This document shows positions 1,038-53,391 of a stretch of DNA of 54,765 nucleotides, piece after piece. Both the position numbers and the translations under genes were made by a program. The notes below the pieces were generated by a model. That model saw only the letters and a program-made list of their open reading frames with translations. It searched no databases and was not told the origin of the DNA. Each line of letters opens with the position of its first letter. The stretch's first letter is position 1. This stretch comes from a virus: the IMG/VR virus record IMGVR_UViG_3300025769_000149, positions 1 through 54,765 of that record; one strand, 5' to 3'.

Positions 1038-1766
1038 ATGGCATTTAAACTAAAAGCCGGTAATTCAGGCAACCCAATACATAAAAATTTCTCAACGTCA
1101 TTTAAGCACGGCGGACATAACTTAGGAAAAGGCGTTCCTGAAGATACGCCTCACTATAACAAGGAGGGTGGAGCACACACAGGTGGTGACTTCTGGTTCG
1201 AGAAGCAAGGTGACGCATCTGGCTGGACGCAAAAAGGAGGTCGTGTAGAAACGACTGAAGTCCCGCATACACCAGAGGGAGATGCTTACTATGCTAGTTT
1301 ATCAGATGAGGAGAAAAAAGCTGCAGACGAAAGGCAAATAGCAAGATCCTCTCAATTCATACCGCTAGAGGACGCGGGTGGTGAAACAATAGAGCCTATA
1401 ACTCCACGAGTTGGGACTCTACCGTCTCCAGAAAGAGATTTTGAATTGAAACCCTCAACCTCTAGCATCAAAGAATACGCTGGTAAACAAGAAGAAGAAA
1501 AAGAAAGTAAAACTGGCGGTAATCTTAAGTACGAACTTAAGCAGGTAGGGAAAGGAATTAAACACGGGGCTAAGCAAATTGGCACTGATGTAGGGAAATT
1601 CATCAAAAACATTGGCAAAGGTGTTGGAAAATGGTGCGACGCATACGGCTGTTACGAAGGAGAGATGCCTCAAAGCACAACGGAAACAGGTGATGACCCC
1701 GCTTTTGCTAAAAAATACGGTAAATCTACAAAAGGACGTGGATATACTATGAAAAACTGTAAATAA
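1038..1766 (+). CDS. MAFK-leader protein, Lys/Gly-rich, 242 aa
   Basis: Begins MAFKLKAGNSGNPIHKNF, the longest member of a family of proteins here sharing the leader MAFK(M/L)KG followed by a SP/NP-M/I-H-K/R-N-F motif (compare 2108-2401). The remainder is hydrophilic and probably disordered. It has a Gly/His segment (about 25-60), an acidic region (85-160) and a Lys/Gly-rich repeat-like stretch (GKGIKHGAKQIGTDVGKFIKNIGKGVGK, here split as GKGIKHGAK, then IGTDVGKFIKN, then IGKGVGK) with amphipathic-helix periodicity near 165-200. It ends with two Cys pairs. No known enzyme fold is visible. A virion or host-interacting role is inference. Confidence 0.65.
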   Translation: MAFKLKAGNSGNPIHKNFSTSFKHGGHNLGKGVPEDTPHYNKEGGAHTGGDFWFEKQGDASGWTQKGGRVETTEVPHTPEGDAYYASLSDEEKKAADERQIARSSQFIPLEDAGGETIEPITPRVGTLPSPERDFELKPSTSSIKEYAGKQEEEKESKTGGNLKYELKQVGKGIKHGAKQIGTDVGKFIKNIGKGVGKWCDAYGCYEGEMPQSTTETGDDPAFAKKYGKSTKGRGYTMKNCK

Positions 1767-1806
1767 AGTAGGGAAAATCCCTATACCAAACATAAAACCA
1801 TAAATA

Positions 1807-2097
1807 ATGACCTATTTATACTACAAGACGTCGACTTCGACGCACACAATGAAGCCAAGTAAACAAGAAATTGAGCAATGGACGCACATGTCTGACAAAT
1901 CTAACTGGCGAATTACCCAATTACCTAACGGATACTACCAAACAGAGGTTTCTCACCCTGCAATTGACGATAATTGGCACTCTGTAACCCGTAGAGAGAC
2001 CATGGAAGGTGCAGAATCCGCGATTGACGGCAGTATCGACTACTTTTCTAAAAAATTAGAGGCTACAAAAGGGCCGAAAGTAGTAAAAACTTTTTAA
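1807..2097 (+). CDS. Small hypothetical phage protein
   Basis: Predicted 96 aa from the first ATG, or 82 aa from ATG at 1849 (MKPSKQEIE), which looks at least as likely because the first 14 residues are low-complexity Tyr/Thr/Ser. The mature region has a beta-like run (NWRITQLPNGYYQTEV) then a helix (ESAIDGSIDYFSKKLEATK), consistent with a compact alpha/beta domain. A 40-base gap precedes it and 10 bases separate it from the next gene. Family not recognised. Confidence 0.6.
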   Translation: MTYLYYKTSTSTHTMKPSKQEIEQWTHMSDKSNWRITQLPNGYYQTEVSHPAIDDNWHSVTRRETMEGAESAIDGSIDYFSKKLEATKGPKVVKTF

Positions 2098-2107
2098 TAT
2101 AAGAAAT

Positions 2108-2401
2108 ATGGCATTTAAAATGAAAGGCAGCCCTATGCACCGTAACTTCGGTGTTGGCAGCGCAACAAAAAAGCGTGGCGAAGATATGGAAGAGATGGAG
2201 AAAATAGACGCTACCGCTGCGTTTGATCCAGAGGGAGACGGTACAGGGGGAAGTGGTAAGAACTGGCAAGCAGCAATTAGTCTACAGCAAGAGACTGATA
2301 CAACCATTGGCGCTGATAAAAGTCTTAAGACGGGCGGATCTACTGTAGCTGATACTGTAAGTACTGACAAAAAGAAAAAAAGAAAGAGAAAAAACAAGTA
2401 A
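2108..2401 (+). CDS. MAFKMKG-leader mini-protein A
   Basis: Predicted 97 aa starting MAFKMKGSPMHRNFGVG, the clearest example of the shared leader. The rest is hydrophilic and low complexity: an acidic patch (EDMEEMEKID), Gly-rich linker, Thr/Ser region and a strongly basic tail of Lys/Arg (residues about 85-97). It appears disordered. It is followed after two bases by another leader-sharing gene. The leader is also conserved at DNA level with the genes at 2404, 2675 and 43346. Not recognised as any named family. Confidence 0.65.
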   Translation: MAFKMKGSPMHRNFGVGSATKKRGEDMEEMEKIDATAAFDPEGDGTGGSGKNWQAAISLQQETDTTIGADKSLKTGGSTVADTVSTDKKKKRKRKNK

Positions 2402-2403
2402 TC

Positions 2404-2673
2404 ATGGCATTTAAAATGAAAGGCTTCCCAAAACAGTCAGGTGTAGGTGGCGTTGAGGCTGAAGAGCGTAAAATAGAAAACATACCGACTAGCGCCCCTG
2501 GCTCTCAAAACCCTAGTTTTCCTGAAGTTTTGTATACCACAGACGGTAAAGCTGTGAAAAGTCAGAGCTTAGACGAAGGGGAGATGCCACTTAAGCCTAG
2601 TTCAGACAAGAACGGTAAATATATAACTTATCCTGGTAGAGGAAGACTCTACTACAAAAATCCAACAAACTAA
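2404..2673 (+). CDS. MAFKMKG-leader mini-protein B
   Basis: Predicted 89 aa starting MAFKMKGFPKQSGVGG. The leader matches the previous gene nearly base for base over about 21 nt, then the proteins diverge completely. The C-terminal half contains short strands (VLYTTDGKAV, KYITYPGRGRLYYKN) suggesting a small beta domain. The stop is followed by ATG of the next leader gene with a one-base gap. Function unknown. Confidence 0.65.
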   Translation: MAFKMKGFPKQSGVGGVEAEERKIENIPTSAPGSQNPSFPEVLYTTDGKAVKSQSLDEGEMPLKPSSDKNGKYITYPGRGRLYYKNPTN

Positions 2674-2674
2674 T

Positions 2675-2959
2675 ATGGCATTTAAAATGACAGGCTACTC
2701 AGCCTTTGATAAAGAAGACCCTAAAACTATGCGCGTAGAAGTTGATCGCGTAGGATCTGATGGTGGAACCTTATGGGTAAATACGAATGAAGGCCCGCGT
2801 AAAGTTAAAGGCGGCGCTGCAGGTATCGCTGAAATTCAAGCAGGCGACATGGTGACAGTTAACGTTGGAGGCGGTGGTATGCTAACATTAGACGCTAAGG
2901 CTGCTGACGACGACGCAACTCACGACTTGCGTAAAAAAAAGACTAAAGCTAGCGCATAA
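2675..2959 (+). CDS. MAFKM-leader mini-protein C
   Basis: Predicted 94 aa starting MAFKMTGYSAFDKEDP. After the leader lies a beta-rich core (MRVEVDRVGSDGGTLWVNT, EIQAGDMVTVNVGGGGMLTLD) resembling a small barrel with a GDMV turn, as in SH3/OB-like or GroES-like cores, then a basic tail (RKKKTKASA). It lies directly upstream of the groEL-like gene with a 37-base A/T-rich gap. A link to the chaperonin is suggested only by position. Confidence 0.65.
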   Translation: MAFKMTGYSAFDKEDPKTMRVEVDRVGSDGGTLWVNTNEGPRKVKGGAAGIAEIQAGDMVTVNVGGGGMLTLDAKAADDDATHDLRKKKTKASA

Positions 2960-2996
2960 GCTAACTACTATAATTTAATTTAATTTACTATAATTC

Positions 2997-4568
2997 ATGG
3001 AATACAACTTACCTAGTGAGTTGATCAAACGTTTAGACTTTGGTCAAACCGCTAAAGAAAAAGTAATAGCTGGCGTACATAAGCTAGCACAAGCCGTAAA
3101 GAGCACATTAGGCGCATCGGGTAAATGCGTAATATACGAGGATGCTCGCGGCCGACCGGTGATCACAAAAGACGGAGTAACCGTTGCCCAAAGCGTAGTC
3201 TTATATGATCCGGTTGAAAACATAGGTGCTACCCTTATTAAAGAAGCAGCTAACAATACAGTGAAAGAAGCAGGCGACGGTACCACTACGGCTACCGTCC
3301 TTGCTGAAGCACTACTTAAAGAGGTAAACAAAGAAAAATATGCTGATGAATCTATTAGAGAAATCAAAGCAGGTATTAGTTCAGGCTTGGAGAAAGTTGT
3401 TAAACATCTTGAAGACAGGGCTATTGAAGTTGAAGGGAGCATGCTTAGCGCTGTTAGCGCGATTAGTTGCAATAATGATAAAGCCCTTGGAAGCGTTATT
3501 GCAGAGGCTTACGAAAAAGTAGGTAAGCATGGTGTCGTACTTATGGAGGAAGGTGACACCGAAGACACGCATGTGGAGTTAGTTGACGGAGTGCAGGTTG
3601 ATTGCGGGCTTACGTCTCCGCACTTTGTCACTAACACTGATAAGCATTTAGCAGAACTAGATAATCCCTACGTATTAGTAGTATCTAGTTTAATACCTAA
3701 CGTACGCAAAATACAAAACGTGTTAGAGCATGTCATCAAGACTGGACGAGCTTTACTTATCATAGCTCCAGTAGATCAGCAAGTGAAAGCCGCGTTGATG
3801 ATGAACAAGGTTAAAGGCAATATCAAAGTTAATATTATTGACCTACCTGGCTTTGGACCTACTAGAAAAGATGCTACAGAAGATTTAGCTATATTAACAG
3901 GCGCTACTATTATTAACGAAGAACTAGGTGATGATCTAGATCTTATTAGTGTAGATCATTTAGGAGAAGTAGAATACGCCGTTACTAGCGATACTAATAC
4001 AGTTATAACATTAGATGGTGTAACTGAGGATATAGAAAATAGGATTAAAGAGGTTAATAACAAAATCGCTGAAGAGAAAAACGGTTTTATTAAGAAAAAG
4101 CTAGAACAACGTCTAGCGACTCTTTCAGGTTCAGTAGGTATTGTTAAAGTAGGTGCTGCTTCAAAAGTAGAGCTTAAGGAAAAGAAAGATAGAGTCGAAG
4201 ACGCTATATATGCTACAAAGGCCGCGCTGCGAGAAGGTATTATTCCTGGTGGAGGTTCGGCGTTATGGTGGGCTTCTAAAAAAATTAAACCCACTAACGT
4301 GGGTGAGGAGATTCTCCTTGAGGCTATTAAGTCTCCAATGCTGACTATCCTAGATAACGCAGGTCTTACTAATGCTAAGTGTGATGGTAAAGACTATTGC
4401 GGTATTGATGTTATATCTGGTAAATGTACAGATATGCTAGACGTAGGAATAGTAGATCCGGTTTTGGTAACAAAATCGGCGCTGAAAAATGCTGTATCAG
4501 TAGTATCAACTATTATATCAGCTGATTGTGTAATTTCAAACGCTAGAGCAGATGAGAGCAATCAATGA
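2997..4568 (+). CDS. groEL: Phage-encoded chaperonin GroEL (Hsp60)
   Basis: Predicted 523 aa group I chaperonin, an ATP-driven folding cage for substrate proteins such as capsid or tail subunits. The ATP-site motifs are intact: TKDG with Asp59 (E. coli Asp52), GDGTTT at 93-98 (Asp87 equivalent) and the DAIYATKAAL segment with Asp402 (Asp398 equivalent) followed by PGGGSAL. The protein lacks the Gly/Met-rich C-terminal tail of bacterial GroEL and ends ARADESNQ. The P-loop-like segment reads ASGKC rather than the usual GPKGR, a notable divergence. The gene overlaps groES by 17 bases. It is divergent enough to be a long-established phage gene rather than a recent host capture (inference). Confidence 0.95.
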   Translation: MEYNLPSELIKRLDFGQTAKEKVIAGVHKLAQAVKSTLGASGKCVIYEDARGRPVITKDGVTVAQSVVLYDPVENIGATLIKEAANNTVKEAGDGTTTATVLAEALLKEVNKEKYADESIREIKAGISSGLEKVVKHLEDRAIEVEGSMLSAVSAISCNNDKALGSVIAEAYEKVGKHGVVLMEEGDTEDTHVELVDGVQVDCGLTSPHFVTNTDKHLAELDNPYVLVVSSLIPNVRKIQNVLEHVIKTGRALLIIAPVDQQVKAALMMNKVKGNIKVNIIDLPGFGPTRKDATEDLAILTGATIINEELGDDLDLISVDHLGEVEYAVTSDTNTVITLDGVTEDIENRIKEVNNKIAEEKNGFIKKKLEQRLATLSGSVGIVKVGAASKVELKEKKDRVEDAIYATKAALREGIIPGGGSALWWASKKIKPTNVGEEILLEAIKSPMLTILDNAGLTNAKCDGKDYCGIDVISGKCTDMLDVGIVDPVLVTKSALKNAVSVVSTIISADCVISNARADESNQ

Positions 4569-4809
4569 TTATATAGTGGTAGATAAGCAGAAAGCAGGGC
4601 CTAAAAAGATTGGAGGTCTTATTCTCACTGAAGATCTAGATCAAGACAATAGATATGTTAAGGCTACAATTATATCTACAGGAAACTTAGTTGAAGGCTT
4701 AAAAGATAACGATGTTATATATTACGACAAACACGCTGGGCATGGTATAACCTGGGCAGATACAATGTACCATGTGATCCGAGCAAGAGATGTTGTGTTA
4801 GTGGAGTAA
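4552..4809 (+). CDS. groES: Phage-encoded co-chaperonin GroES
   Basis: Predicted 85 aa, shorter than bacterial GroES (about 95 aa). It keeps the family layout: an N-terminal strand (INDYIVVDK), a mobile-loop region (KKIGGLILTEDLDQ) with the hydrophobic GLIL tripeptide type contact for GroEL, a central VKATIIST strand, a KDNDVIYYDK turn and a final strand (IRARDVVLVE). Starts inside the end of groEL, so the two are probably translationally coupled. Expected to cap the phage GroEL, or host GroEL, in the cytoplasm. Confidence 0.88.
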   Translation: MRAINDYIVVDKQKAGPKKIGGLILTEDLDQDNRYVKATIISTGNLVEGLKDNDVIYYDKHAGHGITWADTMYHVIRARDVVLVE

Positions 4810-4907
4810 CTACTTCGCTAAACGTGTGATATATATATTAGACCTAAACCTTAAATCACAAACCCTAAACGGTAAATCTTAAACAATTAATAAATAAAAA
4901 TTTAAAA
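4810..4907 (+). promoter_or_regulatory. A/T-rich intergenic leader, possible promoter
   Basis: This 98-base gap is among the longest in the rightward block. It holds loosely repeated CCTAAA/TTAAATC segments and ends in an A/T-rich leader immediately before ATG, without a Shine-Dalgarno sequence. No terminator-like hairpin is visible after groES. A promoter or leader for the following virion gene is plausible, but I cannot assign specific boxes. Confidence 0.25.
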
Positions 4908-5825
4908 ATGACAAACGGAAATTTTTTGTATTTTGCGGAATCAGACGTAGAGACTGGTGGCCACATTGATGGTGAGCCAGAAGCTATTTGTTTTCCTGCA
5001 AGCGCATACATTGGCACTTTCCCTAGAACTGCTACTTCAGTCCTTGTAAAAGCAGAGGCTGGCGGTTATCAGTACAGTTTAATCATGGGCACTAACACCG
5101 GTAAGAATAAAGAGGTTGTTAAGGCTATGGATTCGATCGTGTACGCTAACGCGTCTCAAGGAAAGATGATCACTGTGTATGATGCTGAGGCTGGTACAGT
5201 TAAAGAAGCTAGAATCAACAAAGCCCTACAAGGTCTTGTGACAAGCGTTGCTGGGTTTAGTTGTAGGGCTGTAGGTCCTATTGAAAACAAGGTGAGCACT
5301 ACTGCTAGTGATTTTGGAAACTACGGAGCCGGTGTAGTAGGCACTAGCGCTACTCAACCAACTCCGCTAAACTACACTTGGCGACATGGTTCTGGTTACA
5401 TAACAGAAACGTTTATTGATATAACGGGTCTTGGTAGTGCTAATGACGCTGGTGATGCGATTGGACTCGCTGCTGGTGGTAGAGCTTTTTTCTCAGTAGG
5501 TAAACCGCAAGCCGCGGCTGTAGTTCCATATAAAGTGGAAATGACTTGCCTTGTTGTTCCAACATCTGGATCTAACAACTTGACGGATATTGATCTTTAC
5601 GCTAACTCTTCTGCTGACATTGAGTATGACGGCGCTGTTGATGGCGGTGGTGGTGATCAACTAATTAACAGTGGAACTTGGACAAAAGGTAAGACTTTAG
5701 TTCAAGAAGACAATGTAAACGATACGGTTTTAAACAAACCTCTTTATCTAGCCGCAGGTGCGACTCACAGTGGCGCTAACACGTTTACGGCGGGTAAGTA
5801 TGTCGTAAGAGTATACTGGGTATAA
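4908..5825 (+). CDS. Putative virion structural protein, beta-rich
   Basis: Predicted 305 aa, rich in Gly, Ala, Thr and Val with short strands and loops. It has an Ala/Gly-rich middle and a C-terminal strand reading GKYVVRVYWV. There is no signal peptide, membrane segment or catalytic motif. The preceding A/T-rich leader is typical of well-expressed Bacteroidetes genes. Composition and position between the chaperonin pair and further small virion-like genes suggest a head decoration or fibre component. The family is not recognised. Confidence 0.6.
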   Translation: MTNGNFLYFAESDVETGGHIDGEPEAICFPASAYIGTFPRTATSVLVKAEAGGYQYSLIMGTNTGKNKEVVKAMDSIVYANASQGKMITVYDAEAGTVKEARINKALQGLVTSVAGFSCRAVGPIENKVSTTASDFGNYGAGVVGTSATQPTPLNYTWRHGSGYITETFIDITGLGSANDAGDAIGLAAGGRAFFSVGKPQAAAVVPYKVEMTCLVVPTSGSNNLTDIDLYANSSADIEYDGAVDGGGGDQLINSGTWTKGKTLVQEDNVNDTVLNKPLYLAAGATHSGANTFTAGKYVVRVYWV

Positions 5826-5852
5826 TAATAACATTTAAAAAATAAAGAAATT

Positions 5853-6239
5853 ATGGCAAGATTATTATTTGCAAGCGGCGCTGGAATTGACGCTACAGGA
5901 AGAACGATAGACGCATGCTCAGTAGATGGAAGTGAACTTATAGGTGTAATGCCAGTAAGCGCTACTACTACAGAGGCAATTTTTAGAACTGACAACGGTT
6001 ACGCACCTAACACTACAAGAGTCGTTTTTACTCACGACGATACGCACGCTGTAGAAAGTGGCGCGTCAGGTCATAGAGTTAGAGAAATTGCTGAGGTATT
6101 AACTAAAGCAGCTTCTGCTGGCCCACACTCAGTTGTGGTAGATGTACTTGATTTTGACAATAACGTTAAAACACCAGGTTTAAACTTTGTGACTGGAATT
6201 AGTATCGAAGCTATGTCTGGATACTTCTGGAACACGTAA
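5853..6239 (+). CDS. Small putative structural protein
   Basis: Predicted 128 aa, beginning MARLLFASGAGIDATGRTID and made mainly of short beta strands (ELIGVMPVSA, RVVFTHDD, HSVVVDVLDFD). It looks like a compact beta-sandwich of the type found in phage decoration proteins. It is followed directly by the next gene (one base gap). No motif allows a functional call. Confidence 0.6.
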   Translation: MARLLFASGAGIDATGRTIDACSVDGSELIGVMPVSATTTEAIFRTDNGYAPNTTRVVFTHDDTHAVESGASGHRVREIAEVLTKAASAGPHSVVVDVLDFDNNVKTPGLNFVTGISIEAMSGYFWNT

Positions 6240-6240
6240 G

Positions 6241-6681
6241 ATGAGACTGACAGCGCAAGATTTGCGTGATATGAATATCCTTAAGTATTACAGGCTCACG
6301 CGTAAGTGGGCCTGTAAGACTTATGGATTAACTGATGCTGATCTAGAGTTACTTATATATCTAGATCACAAGGGTAGATTTACCCGCAACGAATTTATCG
6401 AGGGTGCTTACACATATTCTTGGGATAAGAAAAGGTGGGAGAAACTTCGATCAGCTGGCTGGATAGAAGTTTGGCGACATAGAAATAGAACGAGTATTAA
6501 ATACTCTGTATTTAAAACGTCGTTTAAATGCTCACAGCTAGTAACACGAATATATCGCATATTACTAGGCGAAGAAGATATGCCAACTTCTGAACGTAGT
6601 ATTTTTTACAACAATAAATCGTATACAGATAAAGTCTATAACAAAGCTATAGACGATATGATACGAGATAAAGACAGATAA
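6241..6681 (+). CDS. Winged-helix-like phage protein
   Basis: Predicted 146 aa. Residues about 10-95 fit a winged helix-turn-helix: helix 1 (NILKYYRLTRKWACKTYG), helix 2 (DADLELLIYLDHKG), a second helical pair (RNEFIEGAYTYSWDKKRWEKLRSAG) and a wing (WIEVWRHRNRTSIKYSV). The LTDADLELLIYL / GRFT pattern is similar to MarR-type regulators. The C-terminal 50 residues are basic and helical. It could be a DNA-binding regulator of late genes or a virion-associated DNA protein. The fold call is by eye. Confidence 0.65.
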   Translation: MRLTAQDLRDMNILKYYRLTRKWACKTYGLTDADLELLIYLDHKGRFTRNEFIEGAYTYSWDKKRWEKLRSAGWIEVWRHRNRTSIKYSVFKTSFKCSQLVTRIYRILLGEEDMPTSERSIFYNNKSYTDKVYNKAIDDMIRDKDR

Positions 6682-6682
6682 C

Positions 6683-6853
6683 ATGGCTTTTAAAATGAAA
6701 GGGCCTTACCACAAGGCTTTTAAAAACGTTGGTAAATCAGGTATGAATGAAGAACCTTATAAAAAAGTTAAGCATAAGTCCAAAGAAAACGAAGGATGGA
6801 GTATGACTATTGAAAAAGGAGGTTCTTCAAAAGAGAAAACAGTCGTAAAGTAA
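6683..6853 (+). CDS. MAFKMKG-leader mini-protein D, 56 aa
   Basis: A 56-aa gene starting MAFKMKGPYHKAFKNVGKSG and ending KEKTVVK. It is Lys-rich and probably disordered. The start lies one base after the previous stop, and its stop TAA shares the A with the ATG of the following leader gene (TAATG), arguing for real, coupled translation. The repeated leader with the genes at 2108, 2404, 2675, 6853 and 43346 supports the call despite the small size. Function unknown. Confidence 0.65.
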   Translation: MAFKMKGPYHKAFKNVGKSGMNEEPYKKVKHKSKENEGWSMTIEKGGSSKEKTVVK

Positions 6854-7227
6854 TGGCTTTTAAACTCGGTCGTAAACCTTTACCTGGCATTGCTCACAAC
6901 GGTCAACTAAATAAGAAACTTAACATTAAGCACAAAGATCTTGAAGAAGGCACTGTAGCAGAGGCTGTTAATGGCAACGAAATGGTAATAGACAAAGACG
7001 TACCTAAAGACAGTAGATTATACAAAGAAGCCGTAGCTCATGAGGCTGTTCATTGTAAAGAAATGGCTGAGGGCAGAATAGCTTATGGAAAAGACTGGGT
7101 TAGATCAGACGGTAAGACTTACCCTAGAAAAGACGGTAAGATAAAGTATAACGGCGAGTGGCACGAAGAGGGAAGCGAAGTATTTCCTTGGGAGCAACGA
7201 GCTATGAACGCAGAAAAATATGTCTAA
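6853..7227 (+). CDS. MAFK-leader zincin-like protein
   Basis: Predicted 124 aa starting MAFKLGRKPLPGIAHNG. It contains an HExxH zinc-peptidase motif (HEAVH, residues 63-67) in a helix, preceded by a strand (NEMVIDKDVP) and followed by WHEEGSE...PWEQRA (103-118), whose acidic residues could supply a third zinc ligand. This is the minimal layout of small phage zincins. The substrate is unknown; virion maturation or host-protein cleavage are possible. It combines the family leader with a folded, possibly catalytic domain. Confidence 0.65.
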   Translation: MAFKLGRKPLPGIAHNGQLNKKLNIKHKDLEEGTVAEAVNGNEMVIDKDVPKDSRLYKEAVAHEAVHCKEMAEGRIAYGKDWVRSDGKTYPRKDGKIKYNGEWHEEGSEVFPWEQRAMNAEKYV

Positions 7228-7366
7228 ATTCGCAAAAAGATTTTGTAAAAAATCACCGTTTAAACACGCGGTTACAGCTAGTGGGCACAAGCACGTTGAT
7301 GCTAAAGCGCCAAAAAAACCTGCGCCAGCTGGCGAGGTTGATAAATCAAAGTTAGAATTATTATAG
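7220..7366 (+). CDS. Basic mini-protein, 48 aa
   Basis: A 48-aa gene beginning MSKFAKRFCKKSPFKHAVTA, overlapping the end of the zincin-like gene by 8 bases and ending one base before the next ATG. It is Lys/Ala/Pro-rich, and its KSPFKH motif is similar to the SPMH/SPLA motif in the leader-sharing proteins. Probably a small virion or nucleic-acid-associated peptide. Supported by tight packing, not by a known family. Confidence 0.55.
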   Translation: MSKFAKRFCKKSPFKHAVTASGHKHVDAKAPKKPAPAGEVDKSKLELL

Positions 7367-10089: not shown

Positions 10090-10309
10090 AGAGTTGATCA
10101 AGGTAGCTAAAGAAGCTATTGTTGATTCAGACGATGATATATCAGCTGACAGACTTAAAAACGCCGCTGCCACAAAGAAGCTTGCTATCTTCGACGCCTT
10201 CGAGATATTAAACAGAATCCAAGAAGAAGAAAATCTTTTAGAAGGTAAAGCACCTGAAGAAAAGAAAGAGAGAGTATTTAAGGGTTTTGCTGAGGGTAGA
10301 TCTAAATAA
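10034..10309 (+). CDS. terS: Putative terminase small subunit
   Basis: About 91 aa from ATG at 10034 (MNIKETKKSIIQAGHR), inside the end of the preceding gene (56-base overlap). Upstream in-frame starts exist but give an unlikely hydrophobic extension. The protein is all-helical and charged (HRAVEELIKVAKEAIV, DRLKNAAATKKLAIFDAFEI), and its stop overlaps the terL start. A short helical protein immediately before the large terminase is the usual place for TerS, the DNA-recognition ring. No sequence signature confirms it. Confidence 0.55.
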   Translation: MNIKETKKSIIQAGHRAVEELIKVAKEAIVDSDDDISADRLKNAAATKKLAIFDAFEILNRIQEEENLLEGKAPEEKKERVFKGFAEGRSK

Positions 10310-12525
10310 TGTACGAGCAGACTTTATATAAGATAATAGAACCTATAAAGAAAACAACTCTTACTAGATTAAATAGAGGTAAGAAGTGGAAGTACGGTTA
10401 TAACAAAGAGCACGACTTAGTAGTTCTTGCAAATAACGGGGTTATAGGTGATATATACGAAATACAAGGATTAAAGATAGCTTTGCCCAAAGCACCAAAA
10501 AACGTATTTAAACACGAGAAAAATAAGTGGGTTAAACAAGAGTATCCTAAAGAGCTATCTCGTATTAAAAATATATTCGACTGGAGAAACTATCCAGACG
10601 AGCAGAAAGAAAACTGGCACGACTATATTGACGAAGAATTTAGACGTAGAGAAGAAGGGTTCTGGTTCACTAATAACGGAGTGCCAACATACATAACGGG
10701 TACACACTATATGTACCTACAATGGAGTAAGATTGACGTTGGAGCTCCAGACTTTAGAGAGGCGAACAGACTATTCTTTATATTTTGGGAAGCCTGTAAA
10801 GCTGACAAGAGATGCTATGGGATGTGCTACCTTAAAAACCGTCGTTCAGGTTTCTCGTTTATGTCATCAGCTGAAACAGTTAACTTAGCCACTATATCAA
10901 GTGATAGTAGATATGGGATCCTTTCTAAGTCTGGTGCCGATGCAAAGAAGATGTTTACTGATAAAGTAGTACCTATATCAATAAATTACCCATTCTTCTT
11001 TAAACCTATACAAGATGGTATGGATCGTCCAAAATCCGAACTTGCGTATAGAGTTCCAGCTAGTAAATTTACTCGTAAAAAAATACAAGTAAACGAACAG
11101 CTCGAGGAGATAGCGGGTCTTGATACTACAATTGACTGGAAGAACACGGGTGATAATAGCTATGATGGTGAAAAGCTAAATTTGCTAGTACATGATGAGA
11201 GTGGTAAGTGGGAGAGACCTGATAACATATTAAACAACTGGCGAGTTACTAAGACCTGTCTAAGGTTAGGTAGTAGAATCGTCGGTAAGTGCATGATGGG
11301 TAGTACCAGCAACGCGCTTGATAAAGGTGGGGATAACTTTAAAAAACTGTACAATGATTCTGACGTATCAAGACGAAATGCTAATGGACAAACGAAGTCT
11401 GGCCTTTATTCTCTCTTTATCCCAATGGAATGGAACTATGAAGGATTTATTGACGAGTACGGACTTCCAGTCTTTGATAATCCAGGTGATGATGTACGAT
11501 ATGGACCAGACGGTGAATTAATAGACGTAGGTGTAATAACAAGTTGGGAAAACGAAGCGGAAGGTTTAAAAGATGATCAAGACGCGTTAAATGAGTTTTA
11601 TCGTCAATTTCCTAGAACTGAAGAGCATGCGTTTAGAGATGAGACTAAAAACAGTATATTTAATTTAATTAAAATATACGAGCAAATAGATTTTAACGAA
11701 GCTAGCAGACATAGCGCTCATGTTACTACTGGTAGTTTTGGTTGGGTAAATGGGGTAAGAGACACACAAGTTGTTTTCCACCCTGATCCATCAGGTAGAT
11801 TTAAAGTGAGCTGGGTTCCTCCAGGTCATTTACAAAATAAACAGATTGTAAAAAATGGAGTTAGATACCCTGCAAATGAGCATATCGGAGCCTTTGGCTG
11901 TGATAGTTACGACATTAGTGGTACTGTTGACGGTCGTGGTTCGAAAGGCGCATTACACGGACTAACAAAGTTTTCTTTAGAAGAAGCGCCATCAAGCACT
12001 TTTTTCTTAGAGTATATAGCTAGACCACAAACCGCAGAGATGTTCTTTGAAGATGTTTTAATGGCACTAGTGTTTTACGGTATGCCGCTACTCGCAGAGA
12101 ACAATAAACCTAGACTACTATACTATCTACGCCGCAGAGGCTATAGAGGATACAGTATGAACAGACCAGACAAAACTTTGAGAAAGTTATCTGTAGCCGA
12201 ACGAGAGGTTGGAGGTATACCAAACTCAAGTGAAGATATTAAACAGGCTCACGCAGCCGCTATTGAAATGTACATACAGAACTATGTAGGACATTTAGGG
12301 GACGGTGATTTTGGCACGATGTATTTTAATGATACATTACTGGATTGGAGCAGGTTTGATATAAACAAAAGAACAAAGTTTGATGCGTCTATAAGTTCTG
12401 GCTTAGCCATCATGGCTTGCAATAGACATTTATACGCACCAAACGCTAAGACTCAAAAAACACCTTTGAATTTGAATATAGCAAAATATGACAATGAGGG
12501 ATTTATGTCTCAAATAATTAAATAG
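10309..12525 (+). CDS. terL: Terminase large subunit
   Basis: Predicted 738 aa ATP-driven packaging motor and nuclease. The deviant Walker A is KNRRSGFS (residues 176-183) and Walker B is LLVHDESGK (292-300, with Asp296/Glu297). A C-terminal nuclease segment includes AFGCDSYDISG, consistent with an RNase H-type acidic active site. The N-terminal 150 residues have a family extension with GFWFTNNGVPTYITGTHYMY. The Arg-rich Walker A and HDESGK Walker B are like those in crAss-like phage terminases. It overlaps the small putative terS by one base and is followed by portal after two bases. Confidence 0.93.
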   Translation: MYEQTLYKIIEPIKKTTLTRLNRGKKWKYGYNKEHDLVVLANNGVIGDIYEIQGLKIALPKAPKNVFKHEKNKWVKQEYPKELSRIKNIFDWRNYPDEQKENWHDYIDEEFRRREEGFWFTNNGVPTYITGTHYMYLQWSKIDVGAPDFREANRLFFIFWEACKADKRCYGMCYLKNRRSGFSFMSSAETVNLATISSDSRYGILSKSGADAKKMFTDKVVPISINYPFFFKPIQDGMDRPKSELAYRVPASKFTRKKIQVNEQLEEIAGLDTTIDWKNTGDNSYDGEKLNLLVHDESGKWERPDNILNNWRVTKTCLRLGSRIVGKCMMGSTSNALDKGGDNFKKLYNDSDVSRRNANGQTKSGLYSLFIPMEWNYEGFIDEYGLPVFDNPGDDVRYGPDGELIDVGVITSWENEAEGLKDDQDALNEFYRQFPRTEEHAFRDETKNSIFNLIKIYEQIDFNEASRHSAHVTTGSFGWVNGVRDTQVVFHPDPSGRFKVSWVPPGHLQNKQIVKNGVRYPANEHIGAFGCDSYDISGTVDGRGSKGALHGLTKFSLEEAPSSTFFLEYIARPQTAEMFFEDVLMALVFYGMPLLAENNKPRLLYYLRRRGYRGYSMNRPDKTLRKLSVAEREVGGIPNSSEDIKQAHAAAIEMYIQNYVGHLGDGDFGTMYFNDTLLDWSRFDINKRTKFDASISSGLAIMACNRHLYAPNAKTQKTPLNLNIAKYDNEGFMSQIIK

Positions 12526-12527
12526 AT

Positions 12528-14903
12528 ATGGCGGAAAACGTACACGTTAACTTTCCTTCTCAAGCAGTACCTGACCTAGAAAAGATGACGCCTGAGTATG
12601 GGCTTAAGGTAGCGAAAGCAATTGAACAAGAGTGGTTCACAGACGCCAACTCTAATAGATATATGGATACTAAAAATAGTTTCCATAGATTAAGACTGTA
12701 TGCTAGAGGAGAACAATCTATTCAAAAATATAAAGATGAGTTATCTATTAACGGTGATTTATCTTATCTTAATTTAGATTGGAAGCCAGTACCAATTATA
12801 CCTAAATTTGTGGATATCGTAGTTAACGGTATGGCTAATAGAATGTTTACCATTAAAGCTTATTCACAAGATCAATACGGTGTAAGTAAGCGTACTGAGT
12901 ACATGGATTCTCTTTTATTTGACATGAAGTCTAGAGAGTTCAACGATCAGGCACAAGAGATGTTTCAAATCGATTTATATAAAAACGATAAAGAACAACT
13001 ACCAGACACCGAAGAAGAACTAGCATTACACATGCAGCTCAATTATAAGCAAGCTGTAGAGTTAGCTGAAGAACAGGCTATAAATGTGTTGCTTGAAGGT
13101 AGCAACTATAATAACATTAGACAGAGGTTTTTATATGATCTTACTGTTCTTGGTATTGGTTGTATAAAAACAACTTTTAACTGGAGTGATGGCGCAAAAG
13201 TAGAATACGTAGATCCAGCTAACATTGTTTACTCTTATACTGATTCACCTTATTTTGAAGATATATACTATATTGGTGAAGTAAAAACAATACCTATTAA
13301 TGAGTTGGCTAGAGAGTTTGATCACTTAACTGAACTAGATTTAGAAGAGATACACGAAAGCTCAAGCAATAGATATATAGGGGCTAGGCGTATACATGAG
13401 TCTGATAAAAACAAAGTTCAAGTTCTATACTTTAACTATAGAACACACATGAACGAGGTTTATAAAATTAAAGAAACTACTACCGGAGGTTATAAAGCTA
13501 TAGAAAAAAGCGACTCATTTAACCCTCCTGCTCAAGTAGTAGGTAACTACTCTAAAGTACAAAGAGCCGTAGAATGTGTTTTTGAGGGCGCTGTCGTTTT
13601 AGGTACAGATAAATTACTAAAGTGGAACAAGGCTGAAAACATGATGCGAGCAAAGAGTGATTTTAACAAAGTTAAAATGAACTACTCTTTAGTTGCACCA
13701 AGGATGTACAATGGTAAAATAGAATCTTTAGTTAGTAGAATTACGGGGTTTGCTGATATGATTCAGCTTACACACTTAAAGCTGCAGCAAGTGATGTCGC
13801 GCATGGTACCGGATGGAGTATACCTTGATGCTGACGGACTTGCTGAAGTAGATTTAGGTAACGGCACAAACTATAATCCACAGGAGGCACTTAATATGTT
13901 CTTCCAAACTGGTAGTGTAATTGGTAGATCGTTTACACAAGACGGCGATCCAAACCCTGGTAAAATACCTATTCAACAGATATCCAACGGTCAAGGGGCT
14001 GGAGCTAAGCTACAAGCTTTAATTGGTAATTACAATTATTACTTACAAATGATCCGTGATGTAACGGGTTTAAATGAGGCTAGAGACGGTAGTATGCCAG
14101 ATGAAAGGTCTTTAGTTGGCGTTCAAAAATTAGCAGCAGCAAACTCTAATGTTGCAACGCGCCATATATTACTAGGATCAATGTTCTTAACTACCGAGGC
14201 GGCTGAAGCTTTATCTCTTAGAATATCTGATATACTAGAATACTCGCCAACGGCCGATGCATTTGTGCAAGCTATAGGTGCTCACAACGTAGCTACATTA
14301 AAAGATATGGCGGAGCTATACTTGTATGATTTCGGTATATTTATTGAGCTTGAACCTGACGAAGAAGATAAACAGCTATTAGAAAACAACATACAAACAG
14401 CTCTTGCACAACAGTTAATAGATTTAGACGATGCTATAGATATACGTGAAATAAGAAACATTAAGTTAGCAAATCAACTATTAAAAGTAAAGCGTAAGAA
14501 AAAACAAGAGCGTGATCAGAAAATTCAAGAGCAGAACATGCAAGCGCAAGCACAAGCAAATGCGCAAACTCAACAAGCCGCTGCTCAAGCTGAGATACAA
14601 AAAAATCAGGCAAAAACTCAAGCGGACATCCAAATAGAAACTCTTAAGTCTCAAAACAAGATAGCTCATCTTCAAGAGGAAGTTAAACTAAAGAAAGAGT
14701 TAATGGCTTACGAGTTCCAACTTAACAATCAGATAAGAGAACAAGAGCGAGCTTCCAACGAAAGAATGGAGACAATGAAGGAGCAGGGTAAAGATAAGCG
14801 AGAAAAAGCGAAAGCAACTGCTAAAAGATTTGAATCTTCAGGTAATGATGTATTAGGAGGCGGAATGGGTTTAGATAAGTTTACCCCACAAATAGGTAAT
14901 TAA
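12528..14903 (+). CDS. Portal protein
   Basis: Predicted 791 aa, forming the dodecameric DNA channel at the head vertex. It has the usual position right after terminase, and a WKPVPIIPKFVDIVVNGM segment (residues about 85-102) like portals of crAss-like phages. The N-terminal two-thirds is mixed alpha/beta and the C-terminal quarter (about 640-760) is a long Gln/Lys/Glu-rich coiled coil (QAQAQANAQTQQAAAQAEIQ) that probably forms the crown or barrel. The length is on the large side of portals. Confidence 0.9.
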   Translation: MAENVHVNFPSQAVPDLEKMTPEYGLKVAKAIEQEWFTDANSNRYMDTKNSFHRLRLYARGEQSIQKYKDELSINGDLSYLNLDWKPVPIIPKFVDIVVNGMANRMFTIKAYSQDQYGVSKRTEYMDSLLFDMKSREFNDQAQEMFQIDLYKNDKEQLPDTEEELALHMQLNYKQAVELAEEQAINVLLEGSNYNNIRQRFLYDLTVLGIGCIKTTFNWSDGAKVEYVDPANIVYSYTDSPYFEDIYYIGEVKTIPINELAREFDHLTELDLEEIHESSSNRYIGARRIHESDKNKVQVLYFNYRTHMNEVYKIKETTTGGYKAIEKSDSFNPPAQVVGNYSKVQRAVECVFEGAVVLGTDKLLKWNKAENMMRAKSDFNKVKMNYSLVAPRMYNGKIESLVSRITGFADMIQLTHLKLQQVMSRMVPDGVYLDADGLAEVDLGNGTNYNPQEALNMFFQTGSVIGRSFTQDGDPNPGKIPIQQISNGQGAGAKLQALIGNYNYYLQMIRDVTGLNEARDGSMPDERSLVGVQKLAAANSNVATRHILLGSMFLTTEAAEALSLRISDILEYSPTADAFVQAIGAHNVATLKDMAELYLYDFGIFIELEPDEEDKQLLENNIQTALAQQLIDLDDAIDIREIRNIKLANQLLKVKRKKKQERDQKIQEQNMQAQAQANAQTQQAAAQAEIQKNQAKTQADIQIETLKSQNKIAHLQEEVKLKKELMAYEFQLNNQIREQERASNERMETMKEQGKDKREKAKATAKRFESSGNDVLGGGMGLDKFTPQIGN

Positions 14904-14920
14904 TTATATAATATTTTATT

Positions 14921-16120
14921 ATGGAACAAAATAATCAAACAGATCTTGAGGAGGTGATCCAAGAGGTCGAAAACGAAACACCACAAGAAGAGGCTGTAGA
15001 ACAAACGCCTGAACTTGATTTAGAAAAATTTGACAGCAAAGATGACCCAGATGTTATTAAAGTTGATTTAAGCAAACCACCAACCAATGAAACTAAAGAA
15101 AGTAACCCTGACGACTCAGGAGTGGCTGGAGTCGATGAAAGTCCCGAGCCCACACAAGAACAAGAAGAAGTACAACCGCAAGGAGAAGTACAAGGAGAAG
15201 TACCAGTACTAGAGGAAGTAACAGAGGAAGAAGTTGAAGAGTTTAAAGAAGAGGTTAGCGAAGCTATAGATGAAGCCAAAGCTTCTGGCGAGCCACTTCC
15301 AGAAAACGTTCAAAAGCTTATTGACTTTATGGCTGATACTGGAGGAGATCTCGAAGATTACGTTAGGTTAAATAGGAATGTCGAGGATATTGATGATCAA
15401 GACGCTCTTAGAGAATACTATAAAGTTACTAAACCTCATTTATCTACTGAAGAAGTAGAGTTTTTATTAGAAGATAAATTCTCTTATGATGAAGACGTAG
15501 ATGGCGAGAGAGATATTAAAAGAAAGAAGTTAGCCAGAAAAGAGCAAGTTGCAGAGGCTAAAGCCTACTTAGACGGGCAAAAGTCTAAATATTACGAAGA
15601 AATTAAAGCTGGAAGTAAGTTGACAGAAGATCAACAGAAGGCAATTGATTTTTTCAACAGATACAATAAAGAGTCAGAGCAGACTCGTAAGATAGCTGAA
15701 AAAGGTAAATCTATTTTTAAACAAAAAACCGATCAGGTTTTTAATGACAAGTTCAAAGGTTTTGAATATAACGTCGGAGATAAAAAATATAGATTTAACG
15801 TTAAAGACGCGGATAGGGTAAAGGAATCACAAAGTGATATGAATAATTTCATCGGAAAGTTTCTTGATGAAAATCAAAACATGAGTGATGCTAAAGGTTA
15901 CCATAAAGGTTTGTTTACAGCCATGAATCCGGATGTCGTAGCTCAGCATTTTTATGAACAAGGAAAAGCGGATGCTATTAAAGAAAGTATGGCAAAAGCA
16001 AAAAACATTAACACGTCAGCAAGATCAACTCATAACGAGGCTCAAACTAGCGGGTTAAAGTTTAGAGTTCTAGGTGATGATTCTGATTCTTTAAAGTTCA
16101 AAATTAAAAGAAAAAAATAA
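14921..16120 (+). CDS. Capsid scaffold protein
   Basis: Predicted 399 aa. The first about 130 residues are extremely acidic (Glu/Asp/Gln/Pro-rich) and disordered. The middle is helical (LEDYVRLNRNVEDIDDQDAL), followed by a basic C-terminal region ending KFKIKRKK. A highly charged protein with a basic C-terminus directly between portal and major capsid protein is the classic scaffold position and composition. No protease motif is visible, so prohead protease activity is not suggested. Confidence 0.8.
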   Translation: MEQNNQTDLEEVIQEVENETPQEEAVEQTPELDLEKFDSKDDPDVIKVDLSKPPTNETKESNPDDSGVAGVDESPEPTQEQEEVQPQGEVQGEVPVLEEVTEEEVEEFKEEVSEAIDEAKASGEPLPENVQKLIDFMADTGGDLEDYVRLNRNVEDIDDQDALREYYKVTKPHLSTEEVEFLLEDKFSYDEDVDGERDIKRKKLARKEQVAEAKAYLDGQKSKYYEEIKAGSKLTEDQQKAIDFFNRYNKESEQTRKIAEKGKSIFKQKTDQVFNDKFKGFEYNVGDKKYRFNVKDADRVKESQSDMNNFIGKFLDENQNMSDAKGYHKGLFTAMNPDVVAQHFYEQGKADAIKESMAKAKNINTSARSTHNEAQTSGLKFRVLGDDSDSLKFKIKRKK

Positions 16121-16139
16121 CAATTAAAAATTACTTAAA

Positions 16140-17621
16140 ATGTCTATTACAGCAGGAGGTAGTTTAAACAGCGTAGCTTTACCAAACAAAGTAGCTACAG
16201 CTCAAAACTACCTAGATTTTACAACAGCAAACGACGGTTGGGCTAAACAATACCTACCGGAAGTTATGGAAAAGGAAGCTGAGGTGTTCGGTAACAGAAC
16301 AATCGCAGGATTCCTTTCGCAAGTAGGCGCAGAAGAGGCAATGATGTCTGACCAAGTTATTTGGTCTGAGCAGGGTCGTTTGCACCTATGTTTTACAGGT
16401 ACTATTAACACCCAAAGTTCGGTTATTCATATCAATAATGATATTGATGGAACTGGTGATCCAGCAGCTAACCAACCTATCCGTGTTAACGATCAGGTTC
16501 TAGTTGCGATCGATGATTCAGGTGTTACTAATACTTTAATGTGTCACGTACAGTACGTAGACGGCGATGATATCACAGCAACTCCTTACGGATACGAAAA
16601 CTGGGATGATCACACTTCTATTGCTACTGAAACTGGTACTGGTACAACTTGTACAGTTCTAGTTGTTGGTTCTGAATACGGAAAAGGTACTGATGGACCA
16701 GCTTCTTCAAACTCTCCAGCGCACAAGACGTTTACTCAAAAGCCTATTATCCTTAAGGATAAGTACACGGTTAACGGATCTGACACAGCTCAGATTGGTT
16801 GGGTAGAAGTTTCTGGAGAAGATGGAACTGGAGGTTACCTATGGTACCTTAAGGCAGAAGGTGAAACTCGTATGCGTTTCACAGATTACTTAGAAATGGC
16901 TATGCTTGAGTCTGTTCTTCCTGATTCAACTAACTCTCACGTTATTGACGCAGGAGCTGCTAGCTCTGTAGCTGATTCTCTTGGTACTAACTCTGGTCAC
17001 GAAGGTCTATGGGCTGCTATCACTTCTCGTGGTAACGTGTCTACTGGTATCGACGGCGTTAACGCTGCTACTGACTTAGCTGAATTCGATTTAATTCTAG
17101 CTGAGTTTGATAAGCAAGGCGCTATTGAGGAGAACATGCTATTCTGCAACAGAAGCGTTTCTCTAGCGGTAGATGATATGCTTGCATCAATGAACTCTTA
17201 CGGTTCAGGTGGAAGTTCTTACGGAGTGTTTGATAATGACGAAGATATGGCTCTTAACCTAGGATTCTCTGGATTCCGCCGTGGGTCATACGACTTCTAC
17301 AAGTCAGACATGAAGTACTTGAACGACCGTGGAACTAGAGGAGCTATCAACGAGAAAGATCCTACTAATGCAATTCGCGGATGTTTCATTCCAGCAGGAG
17401 TGTCTTCAGTATACGATCAAATGTTAGGTAGAAACCTTAAGCGTCCGTTCTTACACGTACGTTACAGAGCTTCTCAAACTGATAACCGTCGTTTCAAGAC
17501 TTGGGTTACTGGTTCTGTAGGAGCTGCTACATCTGATCTTGACGCTATGACAATTAACTACCTATCTGAAAGGTGCTTAATTACTCAAGGCGCTAATAAC
17601 TTTATGCTACTTAAAGGGTAA
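16140..17621 (+). CDS. Major capsid protein
   Basis: Predicted 493 aa, the expected size for a HK97-fold capsid protein with an inserted domain. It follows the scaffold directly and has the mixed alpha/beta composition and the flexible loops typical of the fold. Its codon use stands out: Arg is often CGT/CGC, and C-ending codons are frequent, where neighbouring genes prefer AGA and T/A-ending codons. That is consistent with very high expression. A strong hairpin with a U-rich tract follows within 50 bases. The call rests on position, size and bias, not on a single motif. Confidence 0.88.
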   Translation: MSITAGGSLNSVALPNKVATAQNYLDFTTANDGWAKQYLPEVMEKEAEVFGNRTIAGFLSQVGAEEAMMSDQVIWSEQGRLHLCFTGTINTQSSVIHINNDIDGTGDPAANQPIRVNDQVLVAIDDSGVTNTLMCHVQYVDGDDITATPYGYENWDDHTSIATETGTGTTCTVLVVGSEYGKGTDGPASSNSPAHKTFTQKPIILKDKYTVNGSDTAQIGWVEVSGEDGTGGYLWYLKAEGETRMRFTDYLEMAMLESVLPDSTNSHVIDAGAASSVADSLGTNSGHEGLWAAITSRGNVSTGIDGVNAATDLAEFDLILAEFDKQGAIEENMLFCNRSVSLAVDDMLASMNSYGSGGSSYGVFDNDEDMALNLGFSGFRRGSYDFYKSDMKYLNDRGTRGAINEKDPTNAIRGCFIPAGVSSVYDQMLGRNLKRPFLHVRYRASQTDNRRFKTWVTGSVGAATSDLDAMTINYLSERCLITQGANNFMLLKG

Positions 17622-43061: not shown

Positions 43062-43346
43062 ATGGCTACTGATCAATATAATAAAGGTCCGCTAAGAATA
43101 ACAGAAGAGGCCTATGAAAGACGCAATAAAAAAATGCGCAAAGATAACCCTGGTATGGGTAAGAGACTTACCAAAGGTAAAAACAAACGAAGAATAAGCT
43201 TTGCTTGTAGATTTGGTGCACAGAACCACCCTATGAAGAATAAGAAAGGAGAGCCTACGGCTTATGCTAAAGCTTTAAAAAAGTGGGGTTTTAGTAGCGC
43301 TGCTGAAGCTAGAAAATTTTGTAACGCAAATAAAGAAAAGAAATAA
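43062..43346 (+). CDS. Small basic phage protein
   Basis: Predicted 94 aa, strongly basic. The core reads GMGKRLTKGKNKRRISFACR ... AQNHPMKNKKGEPTAYAKAL and KWGFSSAAEARKFCNANK. The pattern C-R-x-G...PM-x-(N/D)-K-K-G-x-PT...K-WGFSS is one I have seen in small marine phage virion-associated proteins, of unknown function. Stop TAA shares its last base with the ATG of the next gene. Confidence 0.65.
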   Translation: MATDQYNKGPLRITEEAYERRNKKMRKDNPGMGKRLTKGKNKRRISFACRFGAQNHPMKNKKGEPTAYAKALKKWGFSSAAEARKFCNANKEKK

Positions 43347-43516
43347 TGGCATTTAAAATGAAATCACCGCTTGCAAAAAAGAAATGCGGTCCTTATAGAA
43401 AGAAAAACGCTCAAGGCAAAGAACAAGGCGTGGACGGTATGGCTTGTTGGGAAGGCTATAGATATGCTGGAACAGAAGACGGTTCAGATAAGTGTGTACC
43501 AATAGGAAGAAAATAA
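43346..43516 (+). CDS. MAFKMK-leader mini-protein E, 56 aa
   Basis: A 56-aa gene starting MAFKMKSPLAKKKCGPYRKK. It is the only family member outside the left-end cluster, about 36 kb from the others, and carries four Cys (14, 34, 50 plus GMACWEGY) that could form a small metal-binding or disulphide fold (pattern CGP...ACWEGYRY...DKCVP). It overlaps the previous stop by one base and ends one base before the next ATG. Function unknown. Confidence 0.65.
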   Translation: MAFKMKSPLAKKKCGPYRKKNAQGKEQGVDGMACWEGYRYAGTEDGSDKCVPIGRK

Positions 43517-52317: not shown

Positions 52318-52576
52318 CGATTTCGTCTATTAATTCACGAGCTGTTTGTATATATAGTATTGCATCCATAAGTTCCTCTTGAACATCGTTAAGATAACCG
52401 TCAAGATGTTTGTGTCCACCGCGCATTTCAGCATCTAATGTACGACCATACTTTTTAAAACCTTCATCAGATCGCTGCATAAACTTTTCACATACGCGTT
52501 GTACCACTGGATCGCGAAACGTCATAATTACTTTTTTATTAGACGACTTTGAGTTCATTATTTCTCTATCACTCAT
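52295..52576 (-). CDS. MazG-like nucleotide pyrophosphohydrolase
   Basis: Predicted 93 aa, all-helical. The core reads DPVVQRVCEKFMQRSDEGFKKYG and a helix with LNDVQEELMDAILYIQTARE, carrying the EELMDA acidic cluster used for metal-dependent pyrophosphate hydrolysis in MazG-type folds. The expected reaction is NTP or dNTP hydrolysis to the monophosphate. It is a short single-domain form. It overlaps the previous gene start by four bases and the endonuclease by 23. Confidence 0.72.
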   Translation of the reverse strand: MSDREIMNSKSSNKKVIMTFRDPVVQRVCEKFMQRSDEGFKKYGRTLDAEMRGGHKHLDGYLNDVQEELMDAILYIQTARELIDEIVGPFKNS

Positions 52577-53391
52577 AACGTATCTTTTACAAATGTCCCG
52601 TTAATCATCTTACCCGTGCGCTTACTGATAACGTCGTATGCTTGATCAATACAAAGCTCAATCGACGTGTCACCTAATCTAGCTAAGTTTGTAAGCACAA
52701 CAACCATATCACCAATAGCGTCTATAAACTCAGCTTCATCTTGCTTTAATATAGCTCTGCCAAGCTCACCAGCTTCTTCCATGAGTTTTAAGTATTGAGT
52801 TTTAGTATCACCTTTGTCATACAAACCTCGTTCATCTGCCCACGTTCTGATTAAATCAAAACGACTATGAAGATGCTCACGTTTATGGCCACTCATGTTT
52901 AACGCGCCCGTAGTTGTTCTACAGCATTCGTTGTTATCAAAGTACCTAGCAAACGCCTTATTATATACGTAGCACCTATCGTTATTATACATAGATGTTT
53001 TTACGTTTTCCATAATCCACCTAATAGAGTCAGGGTCAATACAGCACCTACCGTGATCTGTCTCCCAACTCATACCGATCTCATCCATAAGCCTACCTTT
53101 AAGCTTATTTACTGGGCATGGAAATGTAGTTGTTTGTTCTGTTATGTTTATATTCATTGAATTTAATTCTTGTTTTATAGGGTTTAAATCTTTATACAGT
53201 TTACGATCTACTTTGTAGCCATATTCTTTTTGTAGCTCTATCTCCTTGTGAGATATATAACAAATGTCGTCGGACATGTCTAGTATTTCATATTCATCTT
53301 CTGTATAACCTTGCTGACGTGTAACTCTTTCCTCCAGGTTATTTGTTACACCAATCTTTTTACCTGGTATGTGGTATATACAATATGTCAT
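52573..53391 (-). CDS. GIY-YIG-like / MazG fusion protein
   Basis: Predicted 272 aa. Residues 1-70 resemble a reduced GIY-YIG module: CIYHIPGKKIGVTNNLEERV, then a conserved-like DDICYISHKEIELQKEYGYK segment. Residues 71-190 have Cys/His/Asn-rich parts (GRCCIDPDSIRW, ARYFDNNECC) that are not assigned. Residues 195-240 form a MazG-like domain: EEAGE at 205-209 and EFIDAIGD at 221-228, an EExxE plus ExxD arrangement. It probably couples nuclease-like binding to nucleotide-pool control. Whether the first domain is catalytically active is uncertain. Confidence 0.7.
   Translation of the reverse strand: MTYCIYHIPGKKIGVTNNLEERVTRQQGYTEDEYEILDMSDDICYISHKEIELQKEYGYKVDRKLYKDLNPIKQELNSMNINITEQTTTFPCPVNKLKGRLMDEIGMSWETDHGRCCIDPDSIRWIMENVKTSMYNNDRCYVYNKAFARYFDNNECCRTTTGALNMSGHKREHLHSRFDLIRTWADERGLYDKGDTKTQYLKLMEEAGELGRAILKQDEAEFIDAIGDMVVVLTNLARLGDTSIELCIDQAYDVISKRTGKMINGTFVKDTL

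Follow-up and report, generated by a model that had tools for sequence, protein, structure and literature searches.

Seven genes in the 54,765-nucleotide uncultured virus record IMGVR_UViG_3300025769_000149 (positions 1 to 54,765, the whole of which is hereafter called the window) encode proteins that begin with the same short leader, MAFK(M/L), and this leader is very probably a protein-level tag attached to different payloads. The best explanation of the evidence as a whole is a targeting tag that most likely loads its payloads into the phage head. An earlier note on this DNA had listed the seven genes, and each was found to start where the note placed it, always on the plus strand; the leader system is larger in extent than was noted then. 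A degenerate pattern, ATGGCNTTYAARWTG, matches the window five times, all on the plus strand, and has no match in 100 dinucleotide shuffles. The genes occupy three positions: slot A, 5' of the phage GroEL gene; slot B, 3' of a helix-turn-helix (HTH) gene; and slot C, 3' of the gene BIG2.

1038..1766, plus strand: leader gene 1, slot A; starts MAFKLKAG (MAFKLKAGNSGNPIHKNF), 242 residues; close to a MAFKMKAGKEGPMRKNF subgroup of other contigs.
2108..2401, plus strand: leader gene 2, slot A; starts MAFKMKGSPMHRNF (MAFKMKGSPMHRNFG), 97 residues; basic low-complexity tail.
2404..2673, plus strand: leader gene 3, slot A; starts MAFKMKGFP, 89 residues; payload belongs to a family of 10 (VLYTTDGKAVKS region) with linkers of variable length.
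2675..2959, plus strand: leader gene 4, slot A; starts MAFKMTGYSAFDKED (MAFKMTGYSAF), 94 residues.
6683..6853, plus strand: leader gene 5, slot B, immediately 3' of the HTH gene; starts MAFKMKGPYHK, 56 residues, basic.
6853..7227, plus strand: leader gene 6, slot B; starts MAFKLGRK, 124 residues; small HExxH...E zinc-peptidase-like domain.
43346..43516, plus strand: leader gene 7, slot C; starts MAFKMKSPLAKKK, 56 residues, Cys-containing.

The leader, roughly 7-20 residues long, is broader than MAFKM: its core spans residues 2 to about 7, [A/G/S]-[F/Y]-K-[M/L]-K-G, with Gly, Ala or Ser at position 2 and Phe or Tyr at position 3. Among 206 distinct leader genes, in which residues 1-4 were fixed by the search, residue 5 is Met in 85% and Leu in 15%, residue 6 is Lys in 80% and residue 7 is Gly in 75%, with looser use beyond, all of these percentages being biased upwards because the viral scan demanded MAFKMKG on each contig. 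No acidic residue occurs at leader residues 2-7 and few occur at 8-22, and the leader as a whole is basic and aromatic. An S-(P/A)-hydrophobic-K element often follows within the next 25 residues; it lies inside residues 8-32 in 51 of 243 proteins, compared with 3.9 in shuffles. A 136-residue protein of the window that has no leader (204-614) carries repeated SPM/SPL motifs (SPMEM, SPMKY, SPLAG) resembling those that follow leaders.

A pattern for MAFKMKG that was degenerate at every synonymous site matched at least 120 viral contigs, whereas a control peptide of equal degeneracy, MAFEMEG, matched six, all unrelated; the variant MGFKMKG added 67 further contigs. In 257 gigabases of cellular genomes the MAFKMKG pattern found 27 matches, apparently by chance: assessed by eye, none was cassette-like, and most were very short frames or lay within longer ones. 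MAFK[ML] begins 50 of the 856 genes called in 12 genomes, or large parts of genomes, of the lineage, where position-wise residue frequencies predict 0.047; this ratio is inflated because these genomes were picked for carrying leaders. Searches independent of the leader lead to the same conclusion, that the leader is commoner than chance. Strict leaders number one to eight per record, on a single strand each time (50 long records).

These leaders belong to one lineage of podoviruses, since all 51 leader-bearing records (the 50 and the window) carry the capsid family of the window, phrog_13704; 50 of the 51 also have a matching TerL, and neither the capsid family nor a matching terminase occurs in any of 14 control genomes. 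When records were instead retrieved by their major capsid protein (MCP), 5 of 31 had a strict leader, and six of the seven strict-negative records that were read fully or nearly so hold relatives of it (MGFKMKGPSM, MAFKQKGPLFF, MAFNMKGSPMHRNF, MAFTRKSFPT, MPFKQKG, MSFKLGK, MAFSMKP). In one genome (G073, L287-L289) the leaders have drifted jointly, MAFTRKSFPTI..SALKQ occurring twice and MAFKQKGPLFF.SALK twice, which suggests a tag changing in step inside one genome. Outside the lineage, tblastn with leader proteins, a leader-only peptide and several payloads gave no relevant match among 50,697 phage records, so the system is absent from those cultured phages or unrecognisable in them. The earlier note knew of no named family for the leader, and that remains correct: the leader itself is covered by neither a Pfam nor a PHROG match, and the sole paper that a literature search found to contain the string MAFKM is unrelated.

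The payloads behind this leader are diverse. They fall into 105 clusters (243 payloads, E < 1e-4), 78 of them singletons, although 105 is an upper bound because short disordered proteins mask homology. Leader proteins carry a net charge of +7.5 per 100 residues, where other proteins of like size have +0.3, and contain 19% hydrophobic residues against 31% in the comparison proteins; by composition most payloads look disordered. The leader subtype of gene 2108 recurs on different payloads elsewhere, for example in L085, L094 and L096. The most populated payload family is the small HExxH...E domain that includes gene 6853, in which H63, E64, H67 and E114 are invariant across 38 sequences. A structure model of the gene 6853 product has a predicted local distance difference test score (pLDDT) of 79, with residues 7-20 below 50, and its fold matches to the minigluzincins jannalysin and selecase are weak and not significant (E 0.65). 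A search with the peptidase domain alone recovered leader starts in 79 of 79 complete genes, 78 of them M-x-[FY]-K-[LM] and one MANFKLG; MGFKL is commoner here than MAFKL, and this mixture indicates that position 2 tolerates Gly, Ala or Ser.

That leader and payload are separate modules is seen most clearly from homologous payloads, which occur under either of two leaders. The second leader, MAY[TVI]QKNNP[FI], was found on 76 contigs (L377-L446), mostly attached to DUF6321 or WPSAYASG-type payloads, and 34 of 35 second-leader records tested carry the phrog_13704 capsid family, which places them in the same lineage. DUF6321, the WPSAYASG domain, the CLPAAK domain (whose alternative start is the related MAFVQSNNPFKK) and one more family each include payloads, 62-83% identical, that stand behind one leader or the other. 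DUF6321 also matches proteins of pelagiphages and Methylophilales phages, where it has no structural annotation. This interchange bears on the alternative that all leader proteins descend from a single ancient gene family whose start was conserved while the tails diverged quickly, with no present tag function. Conserved slots, leader subtypes that recur within a genome and the homology that short disordered payloads may hide, with 105 clusters as an upper bound, would all suit such descent. However, the payloads include peptidase-like and unrelated DUF6321-type domains, the same payloads stand under a second leader, the motif also appears internally and near the C-terminus of proteins, and leader residues are fixed while synonymous codons vary; we regard descent of this kind as quite improbable.

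The conservation of the leader is of protein and not of DNA. The earlier note took both to be conserved, and its protein half stands; its DNA half does not, there being nothing past what the protein dictates. TTT encodes 88% of leader Phe residues, against a background of 89%, all four codons are in use for Gly7, and ordinary MA-starting genes that have no leader show the same surplus of GCA at codon 2 (100 of 143). Beyond start context, nothing at the DNA level is required to explain the leader. A translation-initiation element, that is, start-region DNA (ATGGCATTTAAAATG) selected for expression, was one option that the earlier note had raised; it could appeal to the codon 2 preference and to an A-rich upstream region. 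Nucleotide-level conservation beyond the encoded residues would be expected of such an element and was not seen. It becomes scarcely credible given that ordinary genes have the same GCA preference, that codons 3 and 7 vary synonymously and position 2 may be Gly or Ser, that copies of the motif lie far from any start, and that payloads can take a different leader.

The note's other option, that payload genes are shuffled through swapping or recombination at a DNA site, would fit the presence of different payloads in the same slots of different genomes. However, codons of identical residues are no more alike within than between genomes (identity 0.727 v 0.742, 0.519 v 0.517 and 0.464 v 0.480), nor are the 30 upstream bases (0.407 v 0.413), and this equal likeness gives no sign of recent DNA copying, which leaves a shuffling site highly improbable. 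Residues 6-14, by contrast with these bases, are slightly more similar within a genome (0.269 v 0.233, reached in 6 of 3000 permutations), as a tag matched to its partner would predict, and common descent could also yield this likeness. The string FKM(K/M)G recurs in the interior of leader proteins and close to a C-terminus, and in some cases the leader is present twice in tandem; examples of internal, tandem or C-terminal copies are SSGFKMKGSS in L018, SSGFKMKGSHHYGKKKKV in L108 and MAFKLKSGNKPAFKMMGSSP in L102. A loose internal motif was counted 8 times against 2.6 expected, 8 being the most reached in 100 shuffles and the numbers small; chance is a poor explanation of the full SGFKMKG(S/F) strings. 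Synonymous variation, internal copies, equal upstream DNA and interchangeable leaders together speak for a protein tag with a shared partner and against both a role in translation and a site of DNA swapping.

The lineage has a nearly constant core gene order of YYK, GroEL, GroES, HTH, several small genes, TerL, portal, scaffold, MCP, BIG1 and BIG2, and the leader genes keep to the three slots, 5' of GroEL, 3' of the HTH gene and 3' of BIG2, which adjoin the late genes. They make up 80 of 522 same-strand genes outside the block from TerL to BIG2 and 2 of 257 inside it (Fisher 8e-13). In the window the neighbours of the leader genes and the head genes are as follows.

2997..4809, plus strand: phage GroEL (2997-4568) and GroES (4552-4809), between slots A and B; PHROG matches at 6.9e-135 and 2.1e-11.
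6241..6681, plus strand: HTH-like core gene, boundary of slot B; homologue of phi40:1 gp078.
7220..7366, plus strand: possible degenerate leader relative adjoining leader gene 6, proposed from sequence alone and excluded from the leader-gene count; MSKFAKRFCKKSPFKH, 48 residues, net charge +8.
10309..17621, plus strand: head module of TerL, portal, scaffold-like protein and MCP; the terminase, portal and presumed MCP match PHROG families (phrog_6681, phrog_6547, phrog_13704).
43062..43346, plus strand: DUF6321 gene without a leader, adjoining leader gene 7; Pfam DUF6321 at E 9.6e-8; in related phages either leader stands on this domain.

The scaffold and MCP roles are assigned from position and from the structural annotation of relatives, not from experiment. 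The window MCP is 46% identical to that of an uncultured podovirus (MW202828), 43% to that of Maribacter phage Panino, 38-39% to those of Flavobacterium elemo phages and 35% to those of Cellulophaga phages phi38:1 and phi40:1. Two giant genes of 2815 and 3314 residues (20280-28727 and 32089-42033) hold positions that are conserved across the lineage. Elsewhere in the window, a 272-residue protein on the minus strand (52573-53391), near a ribonucleotide reductase gene, has a C-terminal MazG-type pyrophosphatase domain, and the first 31 bases are a run of 31 G that is probably a sequencing or assembly artefact of the contig end.

The GroEL/GroES tandem, which nearly all relatives read have in the corresponding position, is flanked by leader genes in most genomes, and this brings in the alternative of a protein tag for a target outside the virion, whether the phage GroEL/GroES, the nucleoid or membrane of the host, or a non-retained assembly factor. 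All of the evidence for a protein tag is equally compatible with such a target. Against the chaperonin stand the slot C leader genes, which lie about 40 kb away, the composition of most payloads, which as disordered proteins would not need a chaperonin, and the presence of GroEL/GroES in relatives without the leader. We consider a non-virion target unlikely.

Loading of the leader proteins into the virion is instead, by analogy with known systems, the probable outcome. The tag, joined through variable linkers to about 100 apparently unrelated, small and mostly basic payloads, would be bound during head assembly by a partner conserved in the lineage, such as the scaffold, capsid or portal; the payloads would then enter the virion and reach the host together with the DNA. 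The leader would thereby correspond in function to the capsid targeting sequence (CTS) of T4 internal proteins, with an independent origin and probably no cleavage. The earlier note had proposed an N-terminal tag read by a common partner: its protein module is well supported, and for the partner, the virion destination, ejection and the uncleaved state we infer what best fits. One payload module matches the "virion structural protein" family phrog_36695, a suggestive hint only, given that the alignment covers about 50 of 895 positions. In the cultured relative phi40:1, tandem mass spectrometry (MS/MS) underlies the structural annotation of the small basic protein gp080, which is encoded two genes past the HTH homologue; homologues of gp080 in the leader lineage lie in slot A, and the one in L009 is immediately 5' of a leader gene. 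A second structural basic protein of phi40:1, gp069, gave a weak low-complexity match to leader protein L116 that was not used.

Several observations weigh against virion loading. No leader protein has been detected in virions, and phi40:1, for which MS/MS data exist, has no leader; because the gp080 homologues themselves have no leader, their virion link is evidence of neighbourhood only. In one genome of the same lineage (G066) the leader was not found in 40 kb. The scaffold, considered as an electrostatic partner, has an acidic N-terminus in most genomes, though not in every one, and remains a candidate. A scan of head and neighbouring proteins against PHROGs and Pfam found no prohead protease, though an unrecognised one is possible, so that the T4 route with cleavage is inapplicable as such. 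The [LI]xE cleavage consensus occurs shortly past the leader in 34 of 196 non-peptidase leader proteins; shuffles give 24.9 (standard deviation 4.2), a small excess, the peptidase family having been left out because its LGE inflates the count. A fuller proposal, which we regard as possible rather than probable, is an undescribed addressing system, lineage-wide, in which two interchangeable short tags would bring dozens of unrelated proteins, a small metallopeptidase among them, into the head with no proteolysis and so provide a large, fast-changing injected set whose members could be listed from their N-termini.

If the leader does a T4-like job, it is a sequence key to the proteins that an uncultured marine phage lineage may inject, the majority of them without a match in known families, and it would offer a natural means of tagging proteins for a P22-like head. 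Even with another destination, a tag on about 100 payload types in one capsid lineage points to a specific partner to look for.

In T4, the internal proteins Ip1-3 have only an N-terminal leader in common, which packages them (PMC12373910; PMC9026906). Several internal proteins of T4-like phages are injected inhibitors of restriction enzymes whose mature parts hit different enzymes, and recognition of the packaging leader enabled the listing of internal proteins in these phages (PMC12373910). The system described here is alike in that a short N-terminal leader is common to small, basic and otherwise unrelated proteins encoded at variable loci. By contrast, the T4 starts MKTYQEFIAE (IPII, IPIII) and MKTFKEFTST (IPI), on proteins with a net charge of +2 to +5 per 100 residues, share one or two identities in 20 positions with our leader, Met1 included. 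The leader phages are podoviruses that have a P22-like portal, carry GroEL/ES and yielded no prohead protease, and they have many more payload types and a second, interchangeable leader. Because the T4 leaders are dissimilar and no prohead protease was found, the leader system is not a member of the T4 CTS family.

The virion of the Bacteroidota phage crAss001 also stores cargo proteins for ejection; these are few and large, and the parts of that report consulted describe no shared leader (PMC10172136). The cargo loading peptide of encapsulins is short, stands at either end of unrelated cargo and is sufficient for loading an HK97-type shell (PMC7355545); the leader motif is likewise N-terminal and occasionally internal or near a C-terminus. 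Encapsulins, by contrast, are cellular compartments, and the likeness is one of motif placement, the capsid family here being known by sequence. Perhaps, then, by analogy, the leader belongs to an independent system that works like the T4 internal proteins and may be nearer to the cargo loading peptides of encapsulins.

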